From: Paludibacteraceae bacterium
Lineage (GTDB): Bacteria > Bacteroidota > Bacteroidia > Bacteroidales > Paludibacteraceae
Direction: 5' to 3'
Length of the DNA: 64,000 bases
Assembly (NCBI GenBank): GCA_031292565.1
Contig: JARLGW010000001.1
Coordinates: 912,435-976,434, forward strand
The notes under the pieces were generated by a model. It worked only from the letters and a program-made list of their open reading frames with translations, ran no database searches and was not told the origin of the DNA. The position numbers and the translations under genes are program-made. Below, one piece after another: positions 33,821 to 64,000 of this stretch. Numbering within the stretch: the stretch's first letter is position 1; every line of letters starts with the position of its first letter.

Positions 33821-34693
33821 ATGGGTTTACAAATTGTAGTTTTAGCCAAACAAGTGCCCGATACCCGCAATGTAGGGAAAGACGCTATGAAGGCTGATGG
33901 AACGGTGAACAGAGCGGCTCTGCCGGCTATCTTCAATCCTGAGGATTTGAATGCACTGGAACAAGCTCTTCGCCTTAAAGACAAACACGAAGGAAGCACA
34001 GTAACTATCTTGACAATGGGTCCCGGACGCGCCGCCGAAATTATTCGCGAAAGTTTATATAGAGGTGCTGACAATGGGTTTTTGCTGACCGATCGAGCCT
34101 TTGCCGGATCGGATACATTGGCTACATCCTACGCCATTTCATGTGCTATCAAAAATTTTCCGAAAGTCGATTTAATTATATGTGGTCGTCAGGCCATTGA
34201 TGGCGATACCGCACAAGTAGGCCCACAGGTAGCTCAAAAACTAGGTCTTCCGCAAATTACCTACGCCGAAGAAATATTGGATCTAAAGAAAGATGTTATC
34301 ACTGTGAAACGCCGCCTGGAAAAAGGTGTGGAAGTAGTGGAAGGTAAATTGCCGATGGTAGTTACCGTGAACGGTTCTGCCCCCGACTGCCGCCCCCGCA
34401 ATGCCAAAATGGTAATGAAATTCAAACATGCCAAAACGGTAAGCGAAAAGCAAGAAGGCAATCAGGATTACACCGAACTATTCGACACACACCCCTACCT
34501 CAACATCACCGAATGGAGCGTAAACGATATTAAATCGGATGCCGACTGGTTAGGACTGAAAGGCTCACCTACCAAGGTGAAAACAATTGAAAGCGTTGTG
34601 TTCCAAACCAAGGAAAGTAAAAAACTTACAGCCGACGATTTCGACATCGAAAGTTTGATGAGAGAACTTATTGCCAATCACACCATCGGATAG
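33821..34693 (+). CDS. etfB: Electron transfer flavoprotein subunit beta
   Basis: 290 aa; IVVLAKQVPDTRN, DLIICGRQAIDGDTAQVGPQVAQKLGLPQITYAEEI. Confidence 0.95.
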   Translation: MGLQIVVLAKQVPDTRNVGKDAMKADGTVNRAALPAIFNPEDLNALEQALRLKDKHEGSTVTILTMGPGRAAEIIRESLYRGADNGFLLTDRAFAGSDTLATSYAISCAIKNFPKVDLIICGRQAIDGDTAQVGPQVAQKLGLPQITYAEEILDLKKDVITVKRRLEKGVEVVEGKLPMVVTVNGSAPDCRPRNAKMVMKFKHAKTVSEKQEGNQDYTELFDTHPYLNITEWSVNDIKSDADWLGLKGSPTKVKTIESVVFQTKESKKLTADDFDIESLMRELIANHTIG

Positions 34694-34722: not shown

Positions 34723-35742
34723 ATGAATAATATAGCCGTATATCTTGAAATAGAAGAAGGCATTGTAGCTGACGTGAGCCTGGAATTATTAACTAAAGGC
34801 CGCTCACTTGCCCATCAATTAAAATGCAAACTCGAAGCCATAGCCATCGGTTCGGGACTGAATAACATCGCCCCTCAGGTATTCCCTTACGGGGTGGATA
34901 TTCTATTCCTTGTGGACGACAAACGCTTGTATCCATACACCTCCATGCCACACACATCCGTGTTGGTAAAACTATTCTCGGAAGAAAAACCTCAAATTGC
35001 CCTTATGGGAGCCACTTCCATCGGTAGGGATTTAGGCCCACGCGTTTCGTCAGCCCTGTTCAGCGGATTAACAGCCGACTGTACCAGCCTTGAAATTGGC
35101 GACTACGAGGAAAAGAAAGAAGGTAAAGTATTCAAAAACCTGTTGTATCAAATCCGTCCCGCTTTTGGAGGTAACATAGTGGCCACCATCGTGAACCCCG
35201 AACACCGCCCACAAATGGCAACGGTACGCGAGGGCGTGATGAAAAAAGAAGTTTTTGATAAAAACCACAAAGGCGAAATCAAAAAACTAGACGTTAAAAA
35301 CTATGTGCCCGATACTGACTTTGTAGTAAAAGTAATAGAACGCCACATGGAAAAATCAAAAGTAAACATCAAAGGTTCACCCATCGTTATCTCAGGTGGA
35401 TACGGTATGGGCTCTAGAGAAAATTTTGATTTGCTGTTCAACTTTGCCTCTGTAATCGGAGCCGAAGTAGGAGCCTCGCGTGCCGCCGTGGATGCCGGTT
35501 TTGCCGACCATGAACGCCAAATTGGTCAAACAGGCGTTACCGTACGTCCCAAGCTATACATTGCCTGTGGCATTTCCGGTCAGATTCAACACATTGCCGG
35601 TATGCAGGAATCGTCCATGATAATTGCCATCAACAACGACCCCCTCGCTCCTATCAATGCCATTGCCGACTATGTAATTACCGGCAACGTGGAAGAAGTG
35701 ATTCCTAAAATGATTAAGTATTATAAGAAGAATAGTAAATAA
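34723..35742 (+). CDS. etfA: Electron transfer flavoprotein subunit alpha
   Basis: 339 aa; C-terminal FAD domain GAEVGASRAAVDAGFADHERQIGQTGVTVRPKLYIACGISGQIQHIAGMQESSMIIAINNDPLAPINAIADY. Confidence 0.95.
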   Translation: MNNIAVYLEIEEGIVADVSLELLTKGRSLAHQLKCKLEAIAIGSGLNNIAPQVFPYGVDILFLVDDKRLYPYTSMPHTSVLVKLFSEEKPQIALMGATSIGRDLGPRVSSALFSGLTADCTSLEIGDYEEKKEGKVFKNLLYQIRPAFGGNIVATIVNPEHRPQMATVREGVMKKEVFDKNHKGEIKKLDVKNYVPDTDFVVKVIERHMEKSKVNIKGSPIVISGGYGMGSRENFDLLFNFASVIGAEVGASRAAVDAGFADHERQIGQTGVTVRPKLYIACGISGQIQHIAGMQESSMIIAINNDPLAPINAIADYVITGNVEEVIPKMIKYYKKNSK

Positions 35743-35755
35743 AGAACTTCTAAAA

Positions 35756-36236
35756 GAAGTTAAGAATTAAGAAGTTAAGAAGACAGAATAATACACATGG
35801 AAATCTCTTGTAAATTTACGGATTTAATAGCTTGGCAAAAAGCCCATGTGTTTGTATTGGAGGTATATAAAGTCACTGAAAAATTTCCAAAACACGAATT
35901 ATTCGGATTGGTGTCTCAATTTAGAAGAGCAGCTGTTTCCATTCCTGCCAACATAGCAGAAGGCTATAAACGAAAAGGAAAAGCAGAAAAATTGAGATTC
36001 TTTAATATATCACAAGGCAGTTTAGAAGAATGTCGCTACTTTATTATTCTTTCAAAAGATTTATCCTACATTGATGAAATGGAATATAACCTTTTGACTC
36101 ATGAAATAGAAGAATCTAGTAGAATATTAAATTCCTATTGTTTAAAAATAAGTAAAGACATTCAAGCAAACTAAATTATCATGAAGAAAATTCTTAATTC
36201 GTTTAACTTCATAACTTCTTCTAACTTCTTAACTTC
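35756..36236 (+). repeat. Nested inverted repeats enclosing the four-helix-bundle gene
   Basis: GAAGTTAAGAA (35756-35766; again 35771-35781) is the reverse complement of TTCTTAACTTC (36226-36236); GAATTAAGAA (35764-35773) is the reverse complement of TTCTTAATTC (36191-36200). Confidence 0.75.
35797..36174 (+). CDS. Four-helix bundle protein, 23S rRNA-intervening-sequence (S23/IVP) family
   Basis: 125 aa; FTDLIAWQKAHVFVLEVYKVTEKFPKHELFGLVSQFRRAAVSIPANIAEGYKRKGKAEKLRFFNISQGSLEECRYFI is the family signature. Confidence 0.95.
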   Translation: MEISCKFTDLIAWQKAHVFVLEVYKVTEKFPKHELFGLVSQFRRAAVSIPANIAEGYKRKGKAEKLRFFNISQGSLEECRYFIILSKDLSYIDEMEYNLLTHEIEESSRILNSYCLKISKDIQAN

Positions 36237-36268
36237 AAACTAAACTTCAAACATAAAAATAAAAAATT

Positions 36269-37978
36269 ATGGCTAACTTTTATACAGACAATGCAGGATT
36301 GAAATTTCAGCTTTCGCATCCTTTAATGAAAAAGATTGTCACCCTCAAAGAAAATAATTTCGCTGATAAAGATAAATACGATTATGCTCCGCATGATTTT
36401 GAAGACACCGTGGATAGTTATGACAAGGTGTTGGAAATCATTGGCGAAATTTGTGGCGACGTGCTGGCTCCCAATGCCGAAGGCGTTGACCATGATGGAC
36501 CTCAAGTGGAAAACAACCGGGTTATTTACGCCCCCGGCACACAAAGAAACCTCGATGCCATAACGCAAGCAGGCGTGTATGGATTGTCCTTACCTCGCGA
36601 ATACGGCGGACTAAACTTCTCCATGATTCCCTACGTGATGGCTGCCGAAGTAGTAAGCCGTGCCGATACCGGGTTTGCTAACATTTGGGGGTTGCAGGAT
36701 TGTGCCGAAACCATCCACGAATTTGCTTCCAAAGAACTAAAAGAAGAATTTCTTCCCCGCATCAATAAAGGAGCAACTTGCTCTATGGACTTGACCGAAC
36801 CTGACGCGGGATCCGACCTACAAGCCGTGATGCTAAAAGCTACCTACAACGAAAAAGACGGATGGTGGTACCTCAACGGCGTGAAACGCTTTATTACTAA
36901 TGGCGATGCCGAAATTAAACTCGTGCTTGCCCGTTCGGAAGAAGGCACTTCCGATGGCCGTGGGCTTTCCTACTTCGTATGCGAAAACCCAAAAGACGCC
37001 TCAATGAAGGTACGCCGTATCGAGGATAAACTGGGTATTAAAGGCTCTCCTACCTGCGAACTGGTGTTTACCAACGTGAAAGCAAAACTCGTGGGCGACC
37101 GCAAACTGGGCTTGATTAAATACGTGATGTCGCTAATGAATGGTGCCCGCTTAGGTGTGGGAGCACAATCTGTTGGCGTATCAGAAGCAGCCTATCGCGA
37201 AGCATTAGCCTATGCCAAAGACCGTCGGCAGTTTGGCAAAGCCATTATCGAATTTCCTGCCGTGTACGAATTGATTTCGGTAATAAAAGCAAAATTGGAT
37301 GCATCACGTGCCTTGCTATACGAAACAACACGTTTTGTAGATGTATATAAAGCGTATGCCATCGTGGCCGAAGAACGAGCATTGGACAAAGAAGAAAAAG
37401 AAGACGCTAAAAAATATCAACGTCTGGCCGATGGCTTCACCCCACTCACCAAGTTGTTTGGCAGCGAATACGCCAACCAAAATGCTTACGACTGTATTCA
37501 AGTACATGGAGGTTCGGGCTTTATGAAAGATTATACCTGCGAACGCCTGTTCCGCGATGCCCGCATCCTAACCATTTATGAAGGGACATCGCAATTGCAA
37601 ACCGTGGCAGCCATCCGCCACGTAACCACGGGTACCTATCTAGCTCAAATACGCCACTATCAAGATGAAAAAATATTGCCCGAATTAGCCGGATTGCGTA
37701 CCAACCTTATTGCATTGACCGATTTGTATGAAAAAACGGTGAATAAAGTGGTTGAAACAAAAAACAACGAATATATAGACTTCCAGGCACGACGTATGGT
37801 GGAAATGGCAGGACACATTATTATGTGCTACCTTTTGTTAATGGATAGCACACGCGACAGTCAGTTTACAAAATCAGCCGAGGTTTATTTGAACTACGCG
37901 AAAGCCGAAATTATAAGGCATAGCAGTTTCATAGAAAGTTTTGACATAGAAAGTATCGGTGTTTATAAACAAGTTTAA
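36269..37978 (+). CDS. Acyl-CoA dehydrogenase family protein
   Basis: 569 aa; CSMDLTEPDAGSDLQAV, GVKRFITNGDAE, YAKDRRQFGKAI, VHGGSGFMKDYTCERLFRDARILTIYEGTSQLQ. Confidence 0.95.
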   Translation: MANFYTDNAGLKFQLSHPLMKKIVTLKENNFADKDKYDYAPHDFEDTVDSYDKVLEIIGEICGDVLAPNAEGVDHDGPQVENNRVIYAPGTQRNLDAITQAGVYGLSLPREYGGLNFSMIPYVMAAEVVSRADTGFANIWGLQDCAETIHEFASKELKEEFLPRINKGATCSMDLTEPDAGSDLQAVMLKATYNEKDGWWYLNGVKRFITNGDAEIKLVLARSEEGTSDGRGLSYFVCENPKDASMKVRRIEDKLGIKGSPTCELVFTNVKAKLVGDRKLGLIKYVMSLMNGARLGVGAQSVGVSEAAYREALAYAKDRRQFGKAIIEFPAVYELISVIKAKLDASRALLYETTRFVDVYKAYAIVAEERALDKEEKEDAKKYQRLADGFTPLTKLFGSEYANQNAYDCIQVHGGSGFMKDYTCERLFRDARILTIYEGTSQLQTVAAIRHVTTGTYLAQIRHYQDEKILPELAGLRTNLIALTDLYEKTVNKVVETKNNEYIDFQARRMVEMAGHIIMCYLLLMDSTRDSQFTKSAEVYLNYAKAEIIRHSSFIESFDIESIGVYKQV

Positions 37979-37991
37979 AAATAGAATACTG

Positions 37992-38024
37992 AAACGGCTT
38001 ACATAGGTTTATGTAAGCCGTTTT
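37992..38024 (+). terminator. Intrinsic terminator after acyl-CoA dehydrogenase
   Basis: AAACGGCTTACATA-ggtt-TATGTAAGCCGTTT followed by T. Confidence 0.85.
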
Positions 38025-63913: not shown

Positions 63914-63921
63914 GTAAAAAA

Positions 63922-64000
63922 CGGCGGCGACCTACTCTCCCACATAATTGCAGTACCATCGGCGTGATTAGGCTTAACTTCTCTGTTCGGAATGGGAAGA
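63922..64000 (-). rRNA. rrf: 5S ribosomal RNA, 3' part (continues beyond window)
   Basis: Reverse complement reads TCTTCCCATTCCGAACAGAGAAGTTAAGCCTAATCACGCCGATGGTACTGCAATTATGTGGGAGAGTAGGTCGCCGCCGT, typical bacterial 5S. Confidence 0.93.

Follow-up and report, generated by a model that had tools for sequence, protein, structure and literature searches.

The junction between etfA and the acyl-CoA dehydrogenase gene (acd) of a Paludibacteraceae genome was found to hold a cassette in which the gene for a four-helix-bundle protein, of the type known from 23S rRNA intervening sequences (IVS) and here termed IVP, stands between inverted arrays of short words. This paired-arm IVP cassette is a general architecture with a well supported anatomy. 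We consider it probable that it represents an IVS-like, promoterless cassette of ~480 bp that rides on host operon transcripts, is long resident, and is able to relocate. A large family that occurs in many copies, and whose annotation goes no further than "four helix bundle protein", gains a common anatomy, that of a paired-arm cassette in operon junctions.

Anatomy of the etfA-acd cassette

The window, i.e. the whole stretch of 64,000 nucleotides that was analyzed, carries etfB, etfA, and acd collinear on the + strand with a 125-aa ORF between etfA and acd, as described in the initial annotation (Table 1). A Bacteroidetes-type −7 box, TAAATTTG, lies ~58 nt upstream of etfB, and none was found upstream of the window IVP or of acd.

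Table 1. Features in and around the cassette, with positions in the window
Feature	Position	Strand	Basis
etfB, host operon gene	33821..34693	+	PF01012
etfA, host operon gene immediately 5' of cassette	34723..35742	+	PF01012 + PF00766
5' arm: word array GAAGTTAAGAATTAAGAAGTTAAGAAG	35756..35782	+	Local alignment vs reverse complement of 3' arm, score 35, 0/200 shuffles
IVP gene, 125-aa four-helix-bundle protein (23S_rRNA_IVP)	35797..36174	+	PF05635, TIGR02436, AlphaFold2, Foldseek
Additional inner 3' word AAATTCTTAATTC, alternative partner of 35764-35776	36188..36200	+	Inverted-repeat pair
3' arm: inverted word array CTTCATAACTTCTTCTAACTTCTTAACTTC	36207..36236	+	Local alignment, shuffles
acd, acyl-CoA dehydrogenase, host operon gene immediately 3' of cassette	36269..37978	+	PF12186, PF00441, PF02770, PF02771
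Terminator-like hairpin AACGGCTTACATA/TATGTAAGCCGTT, candidate end of etfB-etfA-IVP-acd unit	37992..38023	+	Read from sequence; putative function

The arms consist of words of ~7–9 nt in inverted orientation (GAAGTTA.../...TAACTTC). The score of the best gapped arm pair was matched by none of the dinucleotide shuffles and by 0 cross-locus pairings. Both repeat pairs quoted initially are present where they had been placed, but they do not nest cleanly. Because positions 35764–35766 belong to both, the two pairs are alternatives within one array. RNA folding of 35743–36268, proposed earlier as a check, gave −102.8 kcal/mol (z = −2.95), and 0 of 100 shuffles were equally stable. No Rfam family was matched over the cassette. 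The sole Rfam match in the window is a 5S rRNA at 63919–64000 (− strand), clipped by the window end.

The proposed S23/IVP identity of the ORF was borne out by matches above the curated cut-offs to PF05635 (E = 1.7e-40, 138 bits against 33.8) and TIGR02436 (E = 4e-38, 130 bits against 24). The AlphaFold2 model has four helices (pLDDT 95.9), and a Foldseek search with it gave 2GSC as the nearest solved fold (TM 0.88/0.94), followed by 2RLD and by Avd of diversity-generating retroelements (DGR), 4DWL (TM 0.78/0.90). Solved relatives are pentamers. The Avd models scored below their cut-offs on the window IVP (NF033474, 42.8 vs 80 bits; PF22296, 30.5 vs 40 bits). No reverse transcriptase match (PF00078) was found in the own genome, which is 97.7% complete, and reverse transcriptase-driven (DGR) mobility was therefore rejected. 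As to carriage by phages, the only matches were three Pseudoalteromonas phage Avd proteins.

Inverted word arrays around IVP genes

PF05635-type genes were present in 57 of 81 family genomes and 75 of 99 phylum genomes, with at most 16 copies per genome. A search of the own genome for further arm-flanked four-helix-bundle genes, as the initial annotation had advised, returned five PF05635 genes. All five lie between cistrons (etfA/acd, mutA/mutB, ilvB/ilvN, kdgK-like/eda, and a fifth junction), and their flanks are word-like, every copy having its own word. In the flank shuffle test, loci L001–L003 gave p ≤ 0.005, L004 p = 0.025, and L005 p = 0.159, i.e. four of five were below 0.05. The own genome also contains composite arrays that lack an IVP gene (L007, L009, L010, and L011; AACTTC... 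then TATTCT... then GAATTATGAATT), some of them immediately upstream of genes.

The survey comprised 176 IVP loci from Paludibacteraceae family, phylum, and public genomes. RNAduplex energies of 140-nt flanks separated poorly, and local alignment was used instead. Against dinucleotide shuffles, relative to which tandem words inflate the scores, flank pairing was significant in 106 loci at p ≤ 0.005 and in 134 at p ≤ 0.05, counts that are not independent since the loci share ancestry. The stricter threshold was missed by 70 of the 176 loci and even the threshold of 0.05 by 42, including L005; some Flavobacteriia copies have no visible arms. Cross-locus pairing alone is an overly conservative control because homologous loci share words; dinucleotide shuffles, direct-orientation, and neighbor-gene controls took its place. 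The direct-orientation and cross-pair controls limit the inflation by tandem words. With the same flanks in direct orientation, p ≤ 0.01 was reached in 24 of 176 loci, and other genes in the same loci showed flank pairing at p ≤ 0.005 in 3 of 156 cases. An identical repeated 6-mer was found inverted in both flanks of 145 of 209 loci, compared with 23 in direct orientation; random flank pairing yielded a mean of 24.8 and a maximum of 35 (200 trials).

The cassettes have a median length of 482 nt, and the spacing of words within the arrays is mostly 7–10 nt. In the significant loci, the 5' arm stops a median of 22 nt before the start codon and the 3' arm starts 13 nt past the stop. G exceeds C in the 5' arm of 95 loci and falls short of it in 7. 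Gaps from the IVP gene to its neighbors have a median of 65 nt on each side. Where the neighbors are codirectional, the IVP gene is in sense in 146 loci and antisense in 3, a bias that partly reflects operon context, as codirectional neighbors on both sides were likewise found for 70 of 105 control genes. A Bacteroidetes-type promoter (−33 and −7 boxes) was detected upstream of the IVP gene in 1 of 219 loci. Because the cassette sits in sense between host cistrons, the host operon can transcribe the IVP gene, and IVP expression would depend on the host operon transcript.

IVPs are also carried by cyanobacterial plasmids, in some cases within cas operons (cas10/cmr3 and cas6/cas4). The twelve plasmid loci comprise ten from cyanobacteria and two from Bacteroidota; six were significant at p ≤ 0.005, four of these cyanobacterial. 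The others have word arrays lacking significant pairing, except for L297, which has none. The cyanobacterial cas6-IVP-cas4 locus L298 departs from the inverted rule: its long heptamer arrays, AAAGCTA upstream and AAAGCCA downstream, share one orientation.

Residence at the etf site and evolution of the arms

The etfA-acd junction is precisely where the IVP gene lies in 40 loci, which range from Paludibacter and Bacteroides to Prevotella; in 4 it lies between etfB and etfA. In genome G033 (locus L034), both junctions are occupied by cassettes whose words differ. IVP distances track those of etfA, with a Mantel r of 0.66 at a permutation p of 0.001 (0.91 for etfA against acd), and IVP descent is therefore taken to be largely vertical, with some discordance. 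The etf-site lineage is bound to a single junction throughout an order and is not a recent escapee. The comparison of related genomes that had been suggested for finding empty sites showed that the etfA-acd junction lacks an IVP in most relatives, including a 1-nt gap in the congener G003. A word stem without ORF occupies the junction at L042, in another family. In G035 (L037), the etfA-acd gap is 90 nt long and holds a small word-like inverted repeat without ORF, and the cassette is present in G085 and G102, which belong to the same genus; the G035 junction is possibly a cassette relic. In the same-genus genome G001 (L030, 364–1500), etfA and acd lie ~1.1 kb apart, and in place of the cassette the interval contains two different ORFs of 139 and 182 aa.

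IVPs at the same junction are nearly always close relatives. Other recurrent junctions include those that we take to be sufB/sufC and mutA/mutB, names assigned from neighbor sequences. Different junctions can also hold IVPs that are >75% identical, although part of the apparent differences in site within this list reflects no more than contigs ending within the etf operon. These occurrences argue for relocation of the cassette. A fixed site for each IVP lineage was rejected as a general rule, because the ilvB/ilvN copy has its nearest relatives at other sites. Neither a target-site duplication nor a mobilization gene was found, and filled and empty etfA-acd junctions show no clear duplication; relocation is therefore deduced from distribution.

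At the etf junction, the IVP gene has a median dN/dS of 0.06 (26 pairs), and the 50 nt adjoining the ORF are 82–100% identical at dS 0.45–0.93 (gapped random baseline 0.62). By these comparisons, purifying selection evidently acts on the IVP protein and on the arms. Between orthologous etf sites, own arms paired better than with the arm of the homologue in 173 of 182, 413 of 430, and 35 of 35 comparisons (IVP distance bins 0.2–0.35, 0.35–0.5, and 0.5–0.8; pairs not independent). Words shift together across the two arms and throughout their repeats (GAAGTTA, GTAGTTA, GGAGTGA, GGAGATA). Because own arms keep fitting each other best, pairing or word identity is maintained during sequence turnover. 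The arms are conserved in the short term and turn over together in the long term. What keeps the arms matched can be tested directly on the series of orthologous etf sites.

Competing readings and known systems

The initial annotation had proposed an IVS-like element in mRNA. The IVS-type protein, the co-changing inverted flanks, the sense position between cistrons, and the empty sites all agree with this proposal; the lack of a G·U excess speaks against a purely RNA stem. In its strict form, a true IVS in mRNA, RNase III would cut the arm helix and remove or cleave the IVP segment, thereby uncoupling etfBA from acd. This is possible, if on the improbable side. The Coxiella IVS has a length of 428–444 nt, a stem of 28 bp containing a single mismatch and one bulge, an S23p ORF, and an RNase III cut in mid-stem (PMC4990558), and the cassette matches it in size and layout. 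The stability of the fold, the presence of an RNase III gene, and the sense orientation are likewise in favor. A sense RNA helix should tolerate G·U pairs. However, the arm mismatches in 106 loci comprised 114 A·C and 76 G·U; the etf junction accounted for 43 A·C and 17 G·U in its own comparison. By comparison, tRNA acceptor stems in the same sequences gave 8 G·U and 0 A·C, a small sample in which ARAGORN itself may favor G·U. The lack of a G·U excess in the arms does not fit selection acting solely on a sense RNA helix. In addition, the two arms often differ in word spacing and are out of exact register (e.g. L168 and L190), and for both reasons the mRNA stem is not taken as the proven selected object. 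Duplex word recognition or DNA-level copying from arm to arm accounts for the arms at least as well.

Alternatively, and equally tentatively, the cassette would be mobile at the DNA level. The arms would then be terminal inverted repeats built of tandem protein-binding words and corrected arm to arm by foldback template switching or conversion, and transcription would serve only IVP expression. The missing wobble preference, the joint shift of words in both arms and all repeats, and the highly similar IVPs at differing junctions are consistent with such an element. Against it, no transposase or recombinase is encoded within the cassette, no target duplication was seen, and the own genome has no reverse transcriptase match; the strong sense bias is unexpected for a plain DNA element, and the etf lineage keeps one junction across an order.

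It seems unlikely that the IVP gene is an ordinary resident of the operon that serves the host, for instance as a regulator specific to that operon with the arms as its binding sites. The low dN/dS, the conserved arms, and the correlation with etfA would suit this reading, but the gene is missing from most same-family relatives and from congeners, and the same family and arm design recur in unrelated operons and in cyanobacterial plasmids. The initial annotation had reserved this reading for an ORF present everywhere with flanks that do not pair; what was found are empty sites and inverted flanks that change together. Chance pairing of AT-rich, low-complexity flanks is extremely improbable: the flanks are AT-rich and orphan word arrays occur in some genomes, but the control genes paired far less often than the IVP loci, and arms at orthologous sites prefer their own partners.

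In the IVS-like, transcript-borne cassette that we favor, a single cistron without a promoter encodes the Avd-like four-helix-bundle protein and is bounded, shortly outside its start and stop, by inverted arrays of 7–9-nt words; the whole is placed in sense between a host stop codon and the start of the next cistron. In RNA, the arms can close a stem over the IVP cistron. The words would be recognized as a duplex, either the mRNA stem or the two DNA ends, with the encoded protein or an RNP containing it as the likeliest recognizer, and this recognition may maintain or mobilize the cassette. Processing of the stem could split the upstream from the downstream message. The cassette is mostly inherited in place and often lost, and it would occasionally relocate to a different operon junction, where its arms follow the same design.

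A more speculative extension, which we hold with considerable doubt, is that IVP proteins are the cognate recognizers of heptamer-like arrays in Bacteroidota and Cyanobacteria. Each cassette would have its specific word, protein and word would co-diverge, and the arms would be homogenized in concert; the cassettes would be widespread, sequence-matched selfish cistrons in operon junctions that leave orphan arrays after loss. The counts bearing on the idea that orphan arrays occur solely in IVP-rich genomes were mixed: per 100 kb of non-coding DNA, orphan arrays numbered 118 in G026 and 24 in G169 (11 IVPs each), compared with 0–17 in three IVP-free genomes, two of which are GC-rich with little DNA classed as non-coding. 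The IVP offers a candidate partner for intergenic heptamer arrays without evident mechanism. Such arrays, direct repeats of the heptamer TAACTGA, have been described in Beggiatoaceae, Cyanobacteria, and five Bacteroidetes (PMC4679880); "S23" and "intervening" are absent from that text. They resemble the cassette arms as intergenic tandem heptamers, often close 5' of a start codon, in overlapping phyla. They differ in being one heptamer in direct orientation without a partner gene, whereas the cassettes have many words in inverted pairs around an IVP gene.

In our searches of open-access literature (preprints and most subscription papers lay outside them), no account joining cas-locus IVPs, tandem heptamers, and rRNA IVS was found. 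IVPs in cas loci were noted earlier (PMC3936711) and share with the cassettes the position between operon cistrons, here cas10/cmr3 and cas6/cas4. The passage on them in that paper assigns a Cas-associated function and makes no mention of flanking arms. Our results suggest a common reading for IVP genes in cas operons and extend the rRNA IVS idea to mRNA.

With DGR Avd the window IVP shares the fold, but it is set apart by its scores below the Avd cut-offs and by an own genome without a reverse transcriptase match. Miniature inverted-repeat elements (MITEs) and insertion sequences have in common with the cassette a short unit, terminal inverted repeats, empty sites, and an ORF-less relic; the cassette differs in having no transposase, no target duplication seen, a near-strict sense orientation, and locus-specific arms. 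A close parallel is the 23S rRNA IVS of Coxiella and Leptospira, which likewise encodes a PF05635 protein in a unit of ~430–480 nt, with the ORF within inverted repeats and a sporadic presence at a fixed site inside a transcribed region. In contrast to it, the window cassette lies between the protein-coding cistrons etfA and acd and not in an rRNA gene, and the cassette arms are arrays of 7–9-nt words that differ between loci. Moreover, the Coxiella ORF is reported to be decaying and apparently not expressed (PMC4990558), whereas the cassette ORF is under strong purifying selection. The cassette is an IVS-kind element placed in mRNA junctions, a variant new to the IVS kind.
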